DNA of 64,000 nt from Tabrizicola aquatica (lineage in GTDB: Bacteria; Pseudomonadota; Alphaproteobacteria; Rhodobacterales; Rhodobacteraceae): positions 62,001-126,000 of the forward strand of contig NZ_PJON01000005.1 of assembly GCF_002900975.1 (NCBI RefSeq), written 5' to 3'. Shown in pieces: positions 41,485 to 59,652 of this stretch (its first letter is position 1; every line of letters begins with the position of its first letter). The translations under genes were made by a program, and so were the position numbers. The notes beneath the pieces are model-generated. The model made no database searches, was not told where the DNA came from, and saw nothing but the letters and a program-made list of their open reading frames with translations.

Positions 41485-42132
41485 ATGCTGACCCCGCGCC
41501 CCACCGACCCGAACGCCGCCGCGCATGAGCGGTTGTACCGGACCCTGCGTCAGCAGGTCATGCATGGCGAGCTGGACCCCGGCCAGTCGCTGACCTTGCG
41601 GGGCCTGGGCAAGCAGTTCGGCGTGTCGATGACCCCCGCGCGTGAGGCGGTGCGGCGGCTGGTGGCGGAGGGGGCGCTGACGCTGTCCTCGTCGGGCCGG
41701 ATTTCCACCCCCGAACTGACCCCGGAACGGATCGAGGAACTGGCTGCGATCCGGGCGCTGCTGGAACCCGAGATGGCGGCCCGGGCGCTGCCCCGCGCTC
41801 ACTTTGCCCTGATCGAGCGGCTGACGGCGATCAACCTGATGAACGGCGAGGCGGCGGTCCGGGGGGATGCGGTGGCCTATGTCCGCACCAACCTGGAGTT
41901 CCACCGGACCCTCTACCTGCGGGCCCAGACGCCGGCGATGCTGGCGATGTGCGAGACGGTCTGGCTGCAGCTGGGGCCGACGATGCGGGCGGTCTATGCG
42001 AGGGTCAAGCGGAGGGAGCCGCCGATGCACCACCGGGTGATCCTGGCGGCCCTGAAGGCGGGGGACGAGCCGGGCCTGCGGCTGGCGGTGCGGACCGACG
42101 TGACCCAGGGGCTGCGGCATCTGGCGGGGTGA
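41485..42132 (+). CDS. GntR-family (FadR/FCD) transcriptional regulator
   Basis: 215 residues. N-terminal winged HTH (L-T-L-R-G-L-G-K-Q-F-G-V-S-M-T-P-A-R-E-A-V-R-R-L) and an all-helical FCD ligand-binding domain from ~residue 80, with E-F-H-R-T-L-Y-L as the expected metal/ligand helix. Represses or activates a catabolic operon in response to an organic acid; no obvious catabolic operon adjoins it, so the target is unclear. Confidence 0.92.
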   Translation: MLTPRPTDPNAAAHERLYRTLRQQVMHGELDPGQSLTLRGLGKQFGVSMTPAREAVRRLVAEGALTLSSSGRISTPELTPERIEELAAIRALLEPEMAARALPRAHFALIERLTAINLMNGEAAVRGDAVAYVRTNLEFHRTLYLRAQTPAMLAMCETVWLQLGPTMRAVYARVKRREPPMHHRVILAALKAGDEPGLRLAVRTDVTQGLRHLAG

Positions 42133-48005: not shown

Positions 48006-49247
48006 TCACAAATCCATCAGCAACCGACGCGGGTCCTCCAGCGCTTCCTTGACCCGCACCAGGAACGTCACGGCACCTTTGCCGTCCACGATCCGGTGGT
48101 CGTAGCTGAGGGCGAGGTACATCATCGGGCGGATGACGATCTGGCCGTTCACGACGACCGGGCGGTCCTGGATCTTGTGCATGCCAAGGATGCCGGACTG
48201 CGGGGGGTTCAGGATGGGGGAGGACATCAAGGAGCCGTAGACGCCGCCGTTCGAGATGGTGAAGGAGCCGCCCTGCATCTCGGCCATCGACAGCTTGCCG
48301 TCGCGGGCGCGGAGGCCGAGTTCGGCGATCTTCTTTTCGATGGCGGCAAAGCCCATCTGGTCGGCGTCGCGGACCACGGGGACGACGAGGCCCGAGGGGG
48401 TGCCGACGGCGACGCCCATGTGGACGTAGTTCTTGTAGACCACGTCCTGGCCGTCGATCTCGGCGTTGACTTCGGGGACCTCTTTCAGGGCGTGGGTGCA
48501 GGCCTTGACGAAGAAGGACATGAAGCCAAGCTTGACGCCGTGCTTCTTCTCGAAGGCGTCCTTGTATTCGTTGCGCAAGGACATGATGCCGGACATGTCG
48601 ACCTCGTTATAGGTCGTCAGCATCGCGGCGGTGTTTTGCGCGTCCTTCAGGCGGCGGGCGATGGTGGCCCGCAGGCGGGTCATCTTGACGCGTTCCTCAC
48701 GCGCGGCGTCGTCGGCCGGGACCGGGGCGCGGGGGACCGAGGTCGGGGCGGGGGCGGGCGAGGGCGCGGGGGCGGCGGCGGCCTTGGCCACGTCTTCCTT
48801 CATCACCCGGCCGTCCTTGCCCGAGCCCTGGACCTGATCGCGGGAAATCCCGGCCTCGGCCATGGCTTTCTTGGCCGAGGGCGCGTCCTCGACATCCTTG
48901 CGGGGCTGCATTTCCTCATGCCCGGCGCCGGGCGAGCCGACTTCGCCGGCGGCCTGGATGTTCGGGTCGGTGGTCTTGGGGGCCTGCGCGGTGGGCGCGG
49001 GGGTGGCGGCCGCGCCTTCGGTCACGATGGCGAGGCGGGCGTTGGCGGCCACGGTGGTGCCTTCGGGTGCCAGGATCTCGGCCAGGACGCCGGAGACGGG
49101 CGAGGGAACCTCGACCGAGACCTTGTCGGTCTCAAGTTCGCACAGCATTTCGTCCTGCTTCACCGCATCGCCGGGTTTCTTGAACCAGGTCGATACGGTG
49201 GCCTCGGACACGGATTCGCCAAGGGCGGGAACCATAACGTCAGTCAT
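48006..49247 (-). CDS. sucB: 2-Oxoglutarate dehydrogenase E2 (dihydrolipoyl succinyltransferase)
   Basis: 413 residues. N-terminal lipoyl domain ([12 protein letters not shown] with the lipoyl Lys at about residue 43), Ala/Pro-rich linker, peripheral-subunit-binding domain ([11 protein letters not shown] and G-K-D-G-R-V), another flexible linker, and the catalytic core ending S-Y-D-H-R-I-V-D-G. Transfers succinyl from lipoate to CoA. Follows sucA by 24 bp, with the stop of sucA close to its ATG; same transcript. Confidence 0.97.
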
Positions 49248-49271: not shown

Positions 49272-52241
49272 TCAGTTCAGGCCCAGGGCCTGGGCGACGA
49301 GTTGTTGTTGTTCGTACTTGTGGCGGGAGGCCAGGCCCGTGGCGGGCGAGGCGCTGGCCTTGCGGCCGGCATAGGACATCCGGGTGGTGGTGCCGCGGAC
49401 CTTGGTCAGGATCGTTTCCATCTCGGGTTCGACGAAGGACCAGGCGCCCTGGTTCTTCGGCTCTTCCTGGCACCAGACGAAATCGGCCTTCGGGAAGCGC
49501 GCAAGTTCCTGACCCAGCGAGATGGTGGGCAGCGGGTAAAGCTGTTCCACGCGGAGGAGATAGGTGTCCTCCATCCCTTGCGCGTCGCGTTCGGCGAGGA
49601 GGTCGTAGTAGACCTTGCCGGAACAGAGAACGACGCGCTTGATCTGGTCGTCGGCCTTCAGTTTCAGCGTCGAGTTGCCCTTCTGCGCGTCGTCCCACAG
49701 GACGCGGTGGAAGGTGGAGCCATCGGTGAAATCCTCGGCCCGGCTGATCGCCATCGGGTGGCGCAGCAGCGACTTCGGCGTCATCAGGATCAGCGGCTTG
49801 CGGTAGGTGCGGTGCAGCTGGCGGCGCAGGATGTGGAAGTAGTTCGCCGGGGTCGAGCAGTTGGCGACGATCCAGTTGTCCTCGGCCGAGAGTTGCAGGA
49901 ACCGTTCCAGGCGGGCGGAGGAGTGTTCCGGGCCTTGGCCCTCGAACCCGTGCGGCAGCAGGACCACAAGGCCGGACATCCGCAGCCATTTCGATTCGCC
50001 CGAGTTGACGAACTGGTCGAACATGATCTGCGCGCCGTTGGCGAAGTCGCCGAACTGGGCTTCCCACAGGGTCAGCGCGTTCGGCTCGGACAGCGAGTAG
50101 CCATACTCGAAGCCAAGGACGGCATATTCCGACAGCATCGAGTCGATGACCTCATACCGCGCCTGGCCGGGGCGGATGTGGTTCAGGGGATAGTGGCGTT
50201 CCTCGGTCGTCTGGTCGATCCAGCCGGAATGGCGCTGCGAGAAGGTGCCGCGGGTGCAATCCTGGCCCGAGAGGCGGACGGGGAAGCCCTCCACTTGCAG
50301 CGACCCGAAGGCCAGCGCCTCGGCCGTTGCCCAATCGAAGCCTTGACCTTTTGCAAACATTTCCCGCTTGGCCTCAAGCTGGCGGGCCACGGTCTTGTGC
50401 ATGTCGAACCCGTCGGGCACGCGGGTCAGGGCGGCCCCGACCTCGGCCAGGGTCTCGGCCTTGATCCAGGTTTCGCCGCGCTGGTAGGTGTTCAGGTCCT
50501 TGGTCTGCAGGTTCTTCCAGCGGCCATCCAGCCAGTCGGCCTTGTTCGGCAGGAAGGCCTTGCCGGCCTCGAACTCTTCGTTCAGGCGGGCCTGGAAGGC
50601 GGCTTTCATCTGCTCGATCTCGCCTTCGGGGATCAACCCGTCGGCCACCAGACGGTCGGTGTAAAGCTGCAGCGTGGTCTTCTGCTTGCGGATGCGGTTG
50701 TACATCGCCGGGTTGGTGAACATCGGCTCGTCGCCTTCGTTGTGACCGAAGCGGCGGTAGCAGAAGATGTCGATGACCACGTCCTTGTGGAACTTCTGGC
50801 GGAATTCGGTCGCCACGCGGGCGGCGTGGACCACGGCCTCGGGGTCGTCGCCGTTGACGTGGAAGATCGGCGCCTCGACCATCAGGGCGATGTCGGTCGG
50901 ATAGGGCGAGGTGCGGCTGAACGCCGGGGCGGTGGTGAAGCCGATCTGGTTGTTGACGATGATGTGGATGCAGCCGCCGGTGCGGTGGCCCTTGATGCCC
51001 GACAGTTGCAGACATTCCGCCACGACGCCCTGGCCGGCAAAGGCCGCGTCGCCGTGCAGAAGGATCGGCAGGACGGCAATGCGGTCCGTGGTGTCGTTCA
51101 TCTGGTCCTGCTTGGCGCGGACCTTGCCGAGGACAACCGGGTTCACGGCCTCCAGGTGCGAGGGGTTGGCGGTCAGCGACAGGTGGACCTTGTTGCCGTC
51201 GAACTCACGGTCACTGGAGGCACCCAGGTGGTATTTCACGTCACCGGAGCCGTCCACATCCTCGGGCTTGTAGGAGCCGCCCTGGAATTCGTGGAAGATC
51301 GCCCGGTAGGGTTTCTGCATCACGTTCGCCAGGATGTTCAACCGGCCGCGGTGCGGCATGCCGATGATGATTTCCTTCACCCCCAGCGCGCCGCCGCGCT
51401 TGATGATCTGCTCCATCGCGGGGATCACCGCCTCGCCGCCGTCAAGGCCGAAGCGTTTGGTGCCCATGTACTTGACATGGAGGAACTTTTCATAGCCCTC
51501 GGCTTCGACCAGCTTGTTCAGGATGGCCTTGCGGCCTTCGCGGGTGAACTGGATTTCCTTGCCGTAGCCTTCGATCCGTTCCTTCAGCCAGCCGGCCTGT
51601 TCGGGGTCCGAGATGTGCATGTACTGCAGCGCGAAGGTGCCGCAGTAGGTGCGCTTCACGATGTCGATGATCTCGCGCATGCTGGCATGGGTCAGGCCCA
51701 GCACGTTGTCGATGAAGATCGGGCGGTCCATGTCGGCTTCGGAAAAGCCGTAGGACGCGGGTTCCAGTTCCGGGTGCGATTTCTTTTCGGCCAGGCCCAG
51801 CGGGTCCAGGTCGGCGGCGAGGTGGCCCCGGATGCGGTAGGCGCGGATGATCATCAGGGCGCGGATGGAATCGAGGACGGCGCGCTGGATCTGTTCGTTG
51901 GTCAGCTGGACACCGGCCTCGGCCGCCTTGGCAGCGATCTTCGCGCCGGCGGCCTTGGCTTCCTTGGCCGGCGGCGGGGCGGCCCATTCGCCAGTCAGGG
52001 CAGCGGTCAGGTCGTCGGCGGGCTGCGGCGGCCAGTCGGCGCGGGCCCAGGAGGGGCCGGAAGCGGCGCGTTTGGTGTCGACCTCAGAGTCGCCGAGGGA
52101 CTGGAAGAAGGCGGCCCATTGCGGGTCGACCGACGCGGGGTCAGCGGCGTGGCGGGCGGCCAGCTGGTCGACGTAATCGGCATTGGCCCCGTCGAGGAAG
52201 GACGAGGCGGCGAAGGCGGCGGTGGGGGATTGGTCGGTCAT
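49272..52241 (-). CDS. sucA: 2-Oxoglutarate dehydrogenase E1
   Basis: 989 residues. Thiamine-diphosphate enzyme oxidatively decarboxylating 2-oxoglutarate onto the lipoyl group of SucB. N-terminal E1 helix (F-L-D-G-A-N-A-D-Y-V-D-Q-L), G-M-P-H-R-G-R-L-N, H-G-D-A-A-F-A-G-Q-G, the ThDP Gly-Asp region, Y-G-Y-S and the C-terminal W-C-Q-E-E-P-K-N-Q-G are as in the family. Full length. Preceded by a strong hairpin in the 70-bp gap after sucD. Confidence 0.97.
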   Translation of the reverse strand: MTDQSPTAAFAASSFLDGANADYVDQLAARHAADPASVDPQWAAFFQSLGDSEVDTKRAASGPSWARADWPPQPADDLTAALTGEWAAPPPAKEAKAAGAKIAAKAAEAGVQLTNEQIQRAVLDSIRALMIIRAYRIRGHLAADLDPLGLAEKKSHPELEPASYGFSEADMDRPIFIDNVLGLTHASMREIIDIVKRTYCGTFALQYMHISDPEQAGWLKERIEGYGKEIQFTREGRKAILNKLVEAEGYEKFLHVKYMGTKRFGLDGGEAVIPAMEQIIKRGGALGVKEIIIGMPHRGRLNILANVMQKPYRAIFHEFQGGSYKPEDVDGSGDVKYHLGASSDREFDGNKVHLSLTANPSHLEAVNPVVLGKVRAKQDQMNDTTDRIAVLPILLHGDAAFAGQGVVAECLQLSGIKGHRTGGCIHIIVNNQIGFTTAPAFSRTSPYPTDIALMVEAPIFHVNGDDPEAVVHAARVATEFRQKFHKDVVIDIFCYRRFGHNEGDEPMFTNPAMYNRIRKQKTTLQLYTDRLVADGLIPEGEIEQMKAAFQARLNEEFEAGKAFLPNKADWLDGRWKNLQTKDLNTYQRGETWIKAETLAEVGAALTRVPDGFDMHKTVARQLEAKREMFAKGQGFDWATAEALAFGSLQVEGFPVRLSGQDCTRGTFSQRHSGWIDQTTEERHYPLNHIRPGQARYEVIDSMLSEYAVLGFEYGYSLSEPNALTLWEAQFGDFANGAQIMFDQFVNSGESKWLRMSGLVVLLPHGFEGQGPEHSSARLERFLQLSAEDNWIVANCSTPANYFHILRRQLHRTYRKPLILMTPKSLLRHPMAISRAEDFTDGSTFHRVLWDDAQKGNSTLKLKADDQIKRVVLCSGKVYYDLLAERDAQGMEDTYLLRVEQLYPLPTISLGQELARFPKADFVWCQEEPKNQGAWSFVEPEMETILTKVRGTTTRMSYAGRKASASPATGLASRHKYEQQQLVAQALGLN

Positions 52242-52310: not shown

Positions 52311-53195
52311 TTAACCTTTGATCGCCTTCAGCACGGCCTCGCCCAACCCTGCCGGGCTGTCGGCGACGACGATCCCGGCGCTGAGCATCGCCTCGATCTT
52401 CGATTCCGCGTCGCCCTTGCCGCCGGCCACGATGGCACCGGCATGGCCCATGCGGCGGCCGGGGGGGGCGGTGCGGCCGGCGATGAAGCCGGCGGTGGGC
52501 TTCCAGCGGCCCTTCTTCTTTTCATCGGCGAGGAACTGGGCGGCTTCCTCTTCGGCGGACCCGCCGATCTCGCCGATCATGATGATCGAGTGGGTGTCGG
52601 GGTCGGCGAGGAACATCTCAAGCACGTCGATATGCTCGGTCCCCTTGATCGGGTCGCCGCCGATGCCTACTGCGGTGGTCTGGCCAAGGCCCACGTCGGT
52701 TGTCTGTTTCACGGCCTCATAGGTAAGCGTGCCCGAGCGCGACACAACCCCGACCGAGCCCTTGGAGAAGATGCTGCCCGGCATGATGCCGATCTTGCAT
52801 TCGCCGGGGGTCAGGACGCCGGGGCAGTTCGGGCCGATCAGGCGGGACTTGGAGTTGATGAGGGCGCGCTTGACCTTCATCATGTCCAGGACCGGGATGC
52901 CTTCGGTGATGCAGACGATCAGCGGGATCTCGGCGTCGATGGCTTCCAGGATCGAGTCGGCAGCGAAGGGCGGCGGGACGTAGATCACCGAGGCATCGGC
53001 GCCGGTCCGGGCGACCGCGTCATGGACGCTGTCGAACACGGGCAGGCCAAGATGCTCGGTCCCGCCCTTGCCGGGGGTCACGCCGCCGACCATCTGGGTG
53101 CCATAGGCAATGGCCTGTTCGGAGTGGAAGGTGCCTTGGCTGCCGGTGAAGCCCTGGCAGATGACTTTGGTAGCTTTGTTGACGAGAACGGCCAT
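52311..53195 (-). CDS. sucD: Succinyl-CoA synthetase alpha subunit
   Basis: 294 residues from the ATG at 53195, with GGAGG upstream; an ATG five codons earlier (53210) is less well placed. CoA-binding N-terminus ([11 protein letters not shown]), G-P-N-C-P-G, the phospho-His in [12 protein letters not shown]. Forms with SucC the ATP- or GTP-linked enzyme making succinate from succinyl-CoA. Separated from sucC by a gene for an exported protein. Confidence 0.97.
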
Positions 53196-53232
53196 CGGGG
53201 CCTCCTTCACAGAATGGGCTGAGGGGCGGCCA

Positions 53233-53738
53233 TCATTGGCCGGGCCCGAAGGTGAAACGGACAGAACTGGTCGCGGCGTCGTTGCAGACGGGGTCGTTGC
53301 CCGAGGAGGTGACCTCGGCCGTAATTCCGGCTGCCAGGGTCACCGTCATGCATTCAGTGTCGCTGGTCGTGTCGAGCGTGAATCCCGCGGCGCCGCTGAT
53401 CGTCATCACGTTGCCGACCGCACTGTCGGTCCCAAGTGCCTCGGAATAGGCGGCACAGAAGCTGCCGTCGGTGGCGGTCAGGACGTAAAGTGCCGGATCG
53501 GGCGAAGCGATCTGGGTCAGGCCCATGTCGGTGTCTTCGGTCGCGGTCCAGCCAGCCTCGGTGAACAGGGCGGCCGTCTTGGCCGCATCACCCTGGCCGG
53601 CAAGGCAGGCCGCTGCGGCCGAGCGATACGCCTTGATGGGATCGCTGTCGTCCAGGTCTCGCGCCATGAATTCGACGGTCGACCATTCCTGCGCCATTGC
53701 TGGCGCAGCCAGACAAATTGCGAGAAGGGCGACGCGGA

Positions 53739-53742
<4 letters not shown>
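53233..53742 (-). CDS. Exported protein of unknown function inside the suc operon
   Basis: 169 residues. Signal peptide ([17 protein letters not shown], cleavage before Q-E-W). The mature chain has about four Cys (A-C-L, F-C-A, E-C-M, V-C-N), likely two disulfides in the periplasm, and a beta-rich C-terminal half. No known domain. ATG overlaps the sucC stop by 4 bp, so it is translated with the operon despite being periplasmic. Confidence 0.75.
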
Positions 53743-54932
<1,190 letters not shown>

Positions 54933-55042
54933 GGCGCAGCACCTGTCCGTTGGAGAACTTGGCCGCGTGATGGCACGGTTCGGCCCATATTCCTACGGAG
55001 ATTTCCGCCTGTTAGCGCCCAAAGCGGTGGAAAAATGCAGCA

Positions 55043-55094
55043 TGTGATCACACGTTCGCAAACTGTGATCACATGCGCGAAATGCGTGATCACA
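55043..55094 (-). promoter_or_regulatory. Three phased TGTGATCACA sites upstream of sucC
   Basis: TGTGATCACA at 55043-55052 and 55064-55073, and CGTGATCACA at 55085-55094. The TGATCA cores start at 55045, 55066 and 55087, i.e. exactly 21 bp apart (two helical turns). They lie 110-165 bp before the sucC ATG and after the stop of the upstream gene. Array of dimer sites for an unidentified regulator; promoter position not identified. Confidence 0.8.
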
Positions 55095-55124
55095 AGGCGC
55101 GTCGTCGTCCGGTCGAATCGCCGA

Positions 55125-56309
55125 TCAGTTCAGGAACACGGCAAAAAGGACCGCATCGCCGGAAACAAGGCGCTCGAAGTCGTTCCAGGCCTCCAGCGTC
55201 ATGCGAGGGCCCTTCTCGGCATAGGGCAGCAGCCCCTCTCCCTGAATCCAGGTGACAAGGTCGACGGCCGGCGGGTTCTCGAACGCCTTTTTCAGGTTGA
55301 TCCCGGCCTCGGCGCCAAAGCGCCAGTGCGGGATCAGCACCTCGCCCTTCAAGGCGCGCTCGGCCTCGGCCAGGACGGCCTGCCAGCGTTCGCCGGTTTC
55401 GGGCGGGACGAACATGCCCAGGCCCGAGACCTGGCGTGCGTTCGGCACCCATTCGTTGCGGTTGTCATCCTCTAGCGCGACCATGGCCCAGAAGCGGCGG
55501 TTCTCGGCGATCATGGTCAGGAAGTGGTCGTAGGCATCGGCGGCCAAGGCCTTGTCGGGGGTCTTGGACAGGGCGAAAAGCACCATGGCGATGCGGTCCA
55601 CCTGGCGGCCGAACATCATGTCCATCGCATTGGGCGGCGGCGTGTCGCCCCAGAGCGCATAGATTGCGGCGGAGCTGTCCATCACCCGCTGGATCGCGGG
55701 TTCCGGATCATAGGCCAGCGCGGTCGAGACGAAGCCGGACAGGAAATGCGTATAGGCCGAAAGCCAGGCGGCATCGGCGGTGTCGAAGGTGATCACGGGG
55801 TCGGTGACGGGGGCGTTGATCATCCGCCCCCCGCCCAAGGTCAGGCCGGCGACGGTGCCGATATCCTCGCCCTCGCCGCGCTGGCCGTTGCCGTCGATGT
55901 CGAACCACAGGTCGGCCAGGCGGATGTCCAGCGCGAAGGGCTTGTCGCCAAGCTGGGTCAGGGCCGCGCGCGCGGCTTCCATGTCTGCGTCCAGGCCGGT
56001 GACCAGCGCGGTGAAATCCGAAGGGGCAAAGGGACGGGCGGCCGGGTTTTCCGGGATCGGCAGGCGCAGGATCGGCAGTTCCGACCAGTCGGCGCGGATG
56101 CCGGTCTGCCAGCGCAGTTGCAGCGCGGCCTCGACCCCGCCCAGAAAGCGCAGGCCGGCAAGGGCGAAGAGATCCTCGTTCGTGGGGGCGGGCAGGGCCG
56201 CCAGCCGCGCCTCGGTCGCGGCAAGGCCGGTGCGGCCGATCTCCTCGGACAGGGTTTCGGCGGCCAGGGGGCTGGCGGCAAGGATCAGCATCAGGGCAAG
56301 GGCGCGCAT
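55125..56309 (-). CDS. Exported EF-hand-like protein A (TCA-linked paralogue)
   Basis: 394 residues; signal peptide (M-R-A-L-A-L-M-L-I-L-A-A-S-P-L-A-A). A 12-residue loop at 137-148, D-I-D-G-N-G-Q-R-G-E-G-E, satisfies the EF-hand pattern (D1, D3, N5, G6, E12). Other landmarks: L-R-F-L-G-G-V-E, W-L-S-A-Y-T-H-F-L-S-G and E-N-R-R-F-W. The protein encoded at 58388-59596 is a clear paralogue sharing all these. Periplasmic, possibly Ca-dependent. Encoded between mdh and sucC, with the sucC regulatory region after it. Function unknown. Confidence 0.8.
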   Translation of the reverse strand: MRALALMLILAASPLAAETLSEEIGRTGLAATEARLAALPAPTNEDLFALAGLRFLGGVEAALQLRWQTGIRADWSELPILRLPIPENPAARPFAPSDFTALVTGLDADMEAARAALTQLGDKPFALDIRLADLWFDIDGNGQRGEGEDIGTVAGLTLGGGRMINAPVTDPVITFDTADAAWLSAYTHFLSGFVSTALAYDPEPAIQRVMDSSAAIYALWGDTPPPNAMDMMFGRQVDRIAMVLFALSKTPDKALAADAYDHFLTMIAENRRFWAMVALEDDNRNEWVPNARQVSGLGMFVPPETGERWQAVLAEAERALKGEVLIPHWRFGAEAGINLKKAFENPPAVDLVTWIQGEGLLPYAEKGPRMTLEAWNDFERLVSGDAVLFAVFLN

Positions 56310-58387: not shown

Positions 58388-59596
58388 TCAGTTCAGGAAC
58401 ACCATCATCAGACCGGCATTGCCACCCATCAGCGCCTCGAACTGGCGCAGGCTGGTGGGGTTCACCACCGGGCCTTGCTCCAGATAGGGGACGGTGGCCC
58501 AGCCCTGGACCCAGCCGGTGATCGAGATCGGGGCGGGTTCGTCGAACATGCGTCCAAGGTTGATGCCCTGGCCATCCGGGCCGCGCCAGTAGGGGATCAG
58601 GAGACGGCCCTGAAGGAGCGCCTCGCCATCTGCCAGCACGCCAAGCCAGGTGTCGCCGGTGCCGGGAGGCAGGTTGAAGCCAAGGGCGGAGGTCTGGGTG
58701 TCGTTCGGGATCCATTCGCGATCGTTGTCCACCTCTGCGGCGACAAGCGTCCAGAAGCGGCGGTTTTCGGTGATCATCGCCAGGAAATGGTCCTTGGCCG
58801 CCTTGGCGCGTGCCGCGTCGGGGGGCTGGTTCACCGCACCTTCCAGCATGGCGAAGGCATCGAGGAACTGGCCGAACGAGGCGTCGAAGCTGTAGTCGGT
58901 GGGATCGGGCTGTGCCACCTTCAATGCGATGCGCGACGCGATGACCCGGTCGATGCTGGCGGCGGGGTCATAGGCGAGGACCGTGTTCGCCACGCCCGAC
59001 ATGACATGGGTGTAGGCGGTCAGCCAGGCGGCGTCTGCGGCGTCGAAGCGGATGGTCAGTGGGGGTGCGGCGGGGTCGGGTGCCTGCCACTGCCAGCCCA
59101 GAAGCTGCGGGCCGAGGATGGCCAGCGCGTCCTCCTCGGCCTCGCGGGTGCTGTTCTGGTTCACGTCGAACCAGAGGTCGGAGAAGGTGAGTTCAAGGCC
59201 GAACTCTTCACCCGGCGGGAGGGTGGCAAGGGCGGTGCGGGCGGCGGCCATGTCGGCGTCGATGTCGGTGAAAAGCTGGCTGATCAGCGCGCCGTCGAAG
59301 GGTTCGGGCGAAGGGTTCGGCGGCACGGGCAGGCGCAGGAACGGCAGGCCCAGCGTATCGCCCGCGTTGCCGGTGACCTGATCCGCCCCGGTGCGCCATT
59401 GCAGTTGCAGCGCGCTTTCGACGGCGCCGAGGAAGTGCAGCCCGCCGATGGCGAAGATGTCCTCGAGCGCGGGTTCGGGCTGGGCCTTGAGGCGCGCGAG
59501 GGTGGGGGCGATACCGTTGGTGCCGATCTCTTGTGACAGGGTCTGGGCGGCAGCCGGGGTGGCGAGGGCCAAGAGGGCGACGAGGGCGGCTTTCAT
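58388..59596 (-). CDS. Exported EF-hand-like protein B (TCA-linked paralogue)
   Basis: 402 residues from the ATG at 59596 (an upstream ATG at 59650 would disrupt the signal peptide). Signal peptide M-K-A-A-L-V-A-L-L-A-L-A-T-P-A-A-A. Aligns end to end with the protein at 55125-56309: T-L-S-Q-E-I-G, G-G-L-H-F-L-G-A-V-E, W-L-T-A-Y-T-H-V-M-S-G, E-N-R-R-F-W and the C-terminal V-F-L-N. The EF-hand-like loop at 144-155 (D-V-N-Q-N-S-T-R-E-A-E-E) lacks the central Gly. Follows mdh by 83 bp across a terminator-like hairpin. Confidence 0.8.
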   Translation of the reverse strand: MKAALVALLALATPAAAQTLSQEIGTNGIAPTLARLKAQPEPALEDIFAIGGLHFLGAVESALQLQWRTGADQVTGNAGDTLGLPFLRLPVPPNPSPEPFDGALISQLFTDIDADMAAARTALATLPPGEEFGLELTFSDLWFDVNQNSTREAEEDALAILGPQLLGWQWQAPDPAAPPLTIRFDAADAAWLTAYTHVMSGVANTVLAYDPAASIDRVIASRIALKVAQPDPTDYSFDASFGQFLDAFAMLEGAVNQPPDAARAKAAKDHFLAMITENRRFWTLVAAEVDNDREWIPNDTQTSALGFNLPPGTGDTWLGVLADGEALLQGRLLIPYWRGPDGQGINLGRMFDEPAPISITGWVQGWATVPYLEQGPVVNPTSLRQFEALMGGNAGLMMVFLN

Positions 59597-59625
59597 GGGG
59601 ACACCTTCACTGGGACTGAAATGCA

Positions 59626-59652
59626 GAATGCGCAGCCGGGGGCTGCGCATTC
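59626..59652 (-). terminator. Hairpin downstream of mdh
   Basis: Perfect 12-bp stem GAATGCGCAGCC/GGCTGCGCATTC with loop GGG, 27 bp after the mdh stop (minus strand) and 30 bp before the exported paralogue B start. The tail is only weakly T-rich (GCATTTC), so it may be a partial terminator or mRNA-stabilising element. Confidence 0.65.

Follow-up and report, generated by a model that had tools for sequence, protein, structure and literature searches.

The locus upstream of sucC in Tabrizicola aquatica raises the question of what reads three short palindromes that stand in strict register before the genes of a TCA-cycle operon. In the window, i.e., the whole stretch of 64,000 nucleotides that was analysed, TGATCA cores begin at 55045, 55066, and 55087, exactly as the initial annotation had described them, 21 bp apart and before sucC. 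Exact copies of GTGATCAC lie at 55044-55051, 55065-55072, and 55086-55093, 112-161 bp upstream of sucC, in an intergenic region of 192 bp that is bounded by sucC and the stop of the ORF at 55125-56309. The description of all three sites as one 10-bp palindrome stands for two of them, which read TGTGATCACA, but not for the third (55085-55094), which reads CGTGATCACA. The relevant features of the window are:

41485-42132, + strand: P0003, GntR/FCD regulator gene, proposed AkgR ortholog on the basis of its domains and its co-occurrence with the sites
48006-49247, - strand: sucB, E2 subunit, named by inspection
49272-52241, - strand: sucA, 2-oxoglutarate dehydrogenase E1, named by inspection
52311-53210, - strand: sucD, named by inspection of the translation
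53233-53742, - strand: ORF of 169 aa between sucC and sucD, without Pfam match
53739-54932, - strand: sucC, succinyl-CoA synthetase beta chain, adjoining the array, named by inspection in agreement with the initial annotation
54933-55124, - strand: intergenic region in which the sucC promoter is expected from comparison with the family
55043-55052, no strand: putative promoter-proximal operator TGTGATCACA, core at 55045, its GTGATCAC at -119 to -112 before the sucC start codon
55064-55073, no strand: putative middle operator TGTGATCACA, core at 55066, 21 bp from the proximal site
55085-55094, no strand: putative distal third operator CGTGATCACA, core at 55087, 21 bp from the middle site

The 169-aa ORF (53233-53742, - strand) shares 4 bases with the sucC stop. 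Furthermore, just upstream of sucC and a few kb apart from each other, the ORFs at 55125-56309 and 58388-59650 (both - strand) are paralogous, with 46% identity over 386 positions, and neither of them has a Pfam match.

A fourth GTGATCAC of the window is found at 55789-55796, within the ORF at 55125-56309. The resulting count of 4, compared to 0.83 expected, is reached by 2 of 100 shuffles, and the copy number in the window alone is only mildly unusual. The phasing is a different matter: given an even density of the 115 GTGATCAC in the genome (3.87 Mb), about 1e-7 triples would be expected at a fixed step of 21 bp, and chance does not give such phasing. The deciding evidence, because of which the three-site array was judged to be real, is its conservation in relatives.

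This conservation was determined in a sample of 120 Rhodobacteraceae genomes, one per genus. The pattern GTGATCAC-N13-GTGATCAC is present in 100 of them, and the reversed control pattern had no match in any of the 120. By hand count, 177 such places were found, with two pairs in 73 genomes, one in 25, three in 2, and none in 20. The region upstream of sucC was read in 110 genomes, while 10 (G021, G030, G037, G061, G071, G078, G098, G114, G118, and G119) were left out of the upstream table, with sucC being absent or partial or the locus not having been fetched. The initial annotation had made its reading dependent on conserved cores and spacing, and both are indeed conserved: tandem sites occur upstream of sucC in 98 of the 110 genomes, with exactly two exact sites in 96, three in T. 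aquatica itself, and one exact plus one mismatched site in 1 genome. No pair is found in the other 12, two of which have a single one-mismatch site. The step is 21 bp in 91 of the 98 tandem-site genomes and 20 bp in 7, and the proximal site lies at 25 different distances from the start codon in the 97 genomes with at least two exact sites. Thus, the inter-site step is constrained, while the distance to the gene is free. In one genome (G055; L280 and L285), the pairs at sucC and at sdhC are both stepped by 20 bp, as if the preferred spacing of the regulator had changed.

Compared to this two-site norm of the family, the array of T. aquatica contains three phased sites, and the third site proved to be a trait of the genus. 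The exact triple of TGATCA cores was identified in 26 of 32 genomes of the genus; sucC was found in 28 of the 32, and all 28 readable upstream regions carry three sites at 21 + 21 bp. Apart from one mismatch in the distal site of two genomes (G120 and G123), the cores are invariant across these 28 arrays. Outside the cores, full invariance is limited to two columns, a TT some 10 bp past the proximal site; of the 26 spacer columns, 18 contain less than 1 bit, with a TTTC tract in the distal spacer being well conserved, too. Among 394 family genomes, which include two of the same genus as T. aquatica, the triple occurs in 5, both of these two among them. Outside this pair, G166 and G315 carry it at sucC and encode a SucC that is 91% and 96% identical, respectively, to that of T. 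aquatica, and the triple of G339, near which no SucC, SdhC, or AkgR matches were found, is taken as chance. Since the proximal site is followed, at a distance of about 45 bp, by a promoter-like region in a two-site relative (G012) as well as in members of the genus, the extra site of the genus is probably the distal one.

The motif is not confined to sucC. When the genome of T. aquatica was searched for TGATCA pairs separated by N13-N17, seven places were found, of which two belong to sucC and one to sdhC, with four lying elsewhere. At sdhC (C8:128286-128312), the pair is likewise stepped by 21 bp, with about 155 bp between its end and the start of the gene. In the relatives, 30 of the 177 pair places were read; 17 of these precede sucC (at 94-150 bp), 12 precede sdhC (at 115-159 bp), and 1 precedes an ORF that was named fumC-like by inspection (L191; G042 contig 16, 1501-1529). 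The fumC-like ORF of G042 adds a third TCA-cycle target of the 21-bp GTGATCAC pair. Elsewhere (L007 1501-1527; G000 C1:1658678-1658704), an imperfect palindrome of 27 bp that carries TGATCA at either end was observed, with a second GTGATCAC about 270 bp away.

While the initial annotation could name no regulator for the array, the available passages of two publications provide one. GTGATCAC is reported there among the binding sites of AkgR, which is a regulator of the GntR type in Rhodobacter sphaeroides (PMC6365646), and RSP_0981, a GntR family protein of the same species, is the predicted regulator of sucCD, sucAB, and sdh, i.e., of the genes for succinyl-CoA synthetase, 2-oxoglutarate dehydrogenase, and succinate dehydrogenase (PMC4344238). 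As far as these passages go, the array thus shares with the AkgR regulon of R. sphaeroides the motif, the type of regulator, and the sucCD, sucAB, and sdh targets (PMC6365646, PMC4344238). Specifically, the array contains the GTGATCAC palindrome in three exact copies, sites before the suc and sdh operons were found in T. aquatica as well as at 29 of the 30 pair loci read in relatives, and a GntR family gene, P0003, co-occurs with the sites. AkgR and RSP_0981 are presumably one and the same gene, which is consistent with both of the passages mentioned above. Aside from Imam 2015, the paper on AkgR itself, no description of the two-site 21-bp arrangement was found in the accessible passages of the AkgR literature. 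A search for literature on TGTGATCACA likewise returned nothing relevant, as far as titles and the openings of abstracts reveal. A further system with GTGATCAC upstream of the controlled cluster is that of PS417_07240, a GntR-like regulator of a deoxyribonate cluster in Pseudomonas simiae that is 32% identical to AkgR; according to the passage available, it differs in having one palindrome, located before the regulator's own cluster and serving another pathway (PMC6365646).

The product of P0003 combines an N-terminal GntR helix-turn-helix with a C-terminal FCD domain, both scoring above curated cut-offs, and its best sequence match among solved structures is McbR (4p9f). Of the 20 GntR-domain matches in the genome of T. 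aquatica (18 of them above the cut-off), it is the only one on the contig that carries suc and sdh, where it lies on the other side of suc; just beyond sdh, no GntR-domain match was found in this genome. In R. sphaeroides, the numbering of the loci places RSP_0981 a few genes past sdh (PMC4344238, in the part available), and this difference in position counts against the identity of P0003 with AkgR. On domain content and co-occurrence, P0003 would nevertheless be AkgR. Its ortholog, referred to as akgR in the following, shares a contig with sucC in 45 of the 98 genomes in which both genes were placed, and in 38 of these 45 the distance is at most 25 kb. The motif was absent upstream of akgR itself in all 8 readable loci (of 10), so there is no sign of autoregulation through GTGATCAC.

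The co-occurrence with the sites was analysed for three FCD-type GntR genes (P0002, P0003, and P0004) of the 20 GntR-domain matches. With matches of E <= 1e-50 counted as orthologs, P0003 is present in 104 of the 120 family genomes; of the 16 absences, 10 are without a match at E <= 1e-20, and 6 (G004, G019, G054, G101, G109, and G114) have weaker matches only (E 7e-25 to 3e-47). Across the 110 genomes with a readable sucC upstream region, sites accompany the ortholog in 96 and are missing beside it in none, while among genomes lacking the ortholog 2 have sites and 12 do not; the Fisher p value of 2.6e-14 for this association overstates the independence of the genomes, because some of the absences cluster together on the tree. 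This tree, built from SucC, combined all of the 12 no-site genomes with 38 further ones to a total of 50 rows, and the no-site label requires 5 changes on it, 2 of these being forced by well-supported branches. Therefore, the correlated absence of sites and regulator is not a single event. Sites without a P0003 ortholog were found in G019 (210 contigs, 91% complete) and G096 (50 contigs, 77%) as well as, outside the 110, in G114 (320 contigs, 100%); some of these absences may be assembly gaps.

Both control genes track the sites far less than P0003, with counts in the same order of 58/1/40/11 for P0004 (p 0.001) and 34/3/64/9 for P0002 (p 0.75). For P0004, presence was read by hand, leaving out matches that fell on the P0003 gene, and this candidate was rejected, as it is missing from 40 site-bearing genomes. 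P0002, another GntR/FCD gene (C1, at about 197 kb), had been suspected on account of a GTGATCAC about 78 bp before its start (L048 1815-1822; G000 C1, about 197.6 kb); it was dropped, having matches in only 40 of the 120 genomes (E <= 1e-20) and not tracking the sites. An exact GTGATCAC just upstream of the gene was found in none of 7 relatives of P0002 from Tabrizicola and others (L084-L090).

Beyond the family, a class-wide sample of 385 genomes showed a 20- or 21-bp pair in 5 of 5 family members and in 2 of 380 others. One of the latter, from another family of the class (G569; L276, 973-1020), carries two exact sites and one one-mismatch site at steps of 20 and 21 bp, and this array stands before a GntR/FCD gene of the AkgR-like kind (32% identity to P0003), with a dehydrogenase-like ORF after it. 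In the other (G624), the vicinity of the pair showed no match to SucC, SdhC, or AkgR, and this pair looks like chance.

How such an array might act can be considered from its geometry. GntR/FCD proteins bind short palindromes as dimers. Since 21 bp correspond to two turns of B-DNA, dimers on successive sites would line up. Each GTGATCAC palindrome would be bound by one dimer of P0003, the GntR/FCD product of 41485-42132, and with the 21-bp step, two dimers (family-wide) or three (in the genus of T. aquatica) would come to lie on the same side of the helix. From this position upstream of the sucC promoter, they would most likely contact each other and most likely activate sucC-sucD-sucA-sucB; sdhCDAB would be served by the same regulator through its two-site copy. 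Concerning the promoter, a two-part element (TT[TA]A[AC], then TATA) that begins 46-48 bp past the proximal site was found in 16 of 97 family upstream regions, compared to about 1 in shuffles, and is the best of seven patterns tried. It is missing or degenerate in the other 81 and is not evident in the window of T. aquatica, for which a -35-like region about 46 bp after the proximal site is proposed with low confidence. By itself, TATA does not exceed its frequency in shuffles (33 of 97 compared to 33) and is only better placed. With the sites lying well upstream of the promoter thus predicted, their placement would fit activation.

Taken together, we consider it highly probable that the array is an AkgR-type operator, on which dimers of P0003 would occupy each GTGATCAC on one face of the DNA and activate sucCDAB. 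The proposal of the initial annotation that the array controls sucCDAB agrees with its being real, strictly phased, and conserved at this place, and the cooperativity proposed along with it is plausible. The sites with their phasing and conservation, the target genes next to them, and their co-occurrence with P0003 were observed directly, while the identity of P0003 with AkgR, its binding at this locus, cooperativity, activation as opposed to repression, and a role of the third site are inferred. The step to activation is where a competing view applies, according to which the same operator and regulator serve mainly in repression or in a dual manner, with the sites forming a block or a loop upstream of the promoter. 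Repressors are common among GntR/FCD proteins, and the assignment of the promoter may be in error, as the -35/-10-like pair was seen in 16 of 97 sequences only; on the other hand, the location of the sites, about 46 bp ahead of the proposed -35 element, is activator-like, and AkgR is termed an activator in the passage available (PMC6365646). We regard repression or dual action as rather unlikely; it touches the activation step only, and its probability overlaps with that of the operator reading as a whole.

Less probable by far is the binding of a transcription factor other than P0003. Such a factor might have escaped an analysis that covered 3 of the 20 GntR-domain matches and no further regulator family, and three genomes have sites without a found ortholog, but the presence of sites in 96 of 96 regulator-bearing genomes, the failure of two other GntR genes to track them, and the same motif before an AkgR-like gene in another family all argue for P0003. 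The consensus of CRP is TGTGA-N6-TCACA. Its half-sites TGTGA and TCACA are common to both operators, which could suggest a CRP/FNR-type site; this is very improbable, as the half-sites of the array abut without the 6-bp spacer and the aligned copies keep the abutting palindrome, so the rejection of a CRP site by the initial annotation holds. Finally, the + strand is open at this place (mechanical ORF 53697-55475), and the step is divisible by three, with 21 bp corresponding to 7 codons and V-I-T repeats. A coding repeat, or plain chance, is hardly credible all the same and was rejected, given that the 20-bp step in seven genera would break the frame and that the spacers drift far more than the conserved cores.

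In view of the AkgR-type operator that we favour, the regulation described here is mostly known, and the fixed third operator is a new variation of it. What is new is the genus-wide third site in phase with the other two, together with the quantitative link between the sites and the regulator. As sdhC of T. aquatica keeps two sites, one may speculate, albeit with considerable reservation, that AkgR-type GntR/FCD proteins oligomerise along the DNA in steps of two turns, that the genus fixed a third operator at sucC to obtain a steeper cooperative switch specific to sucCDAB, and that phased arrays could be a general design of this class of proteins. Across a large family, the analysis connects an operator of strict phasing with a TCA-cycle regulator known by name, the absences of site and regulator being correlated at several places of the tree. 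Furthermore, the natural two-site and three-site versions of one promoter, with steps of 20 or 21 bp, provide material for testing the roles of operator number and helical phase in cooperativity.
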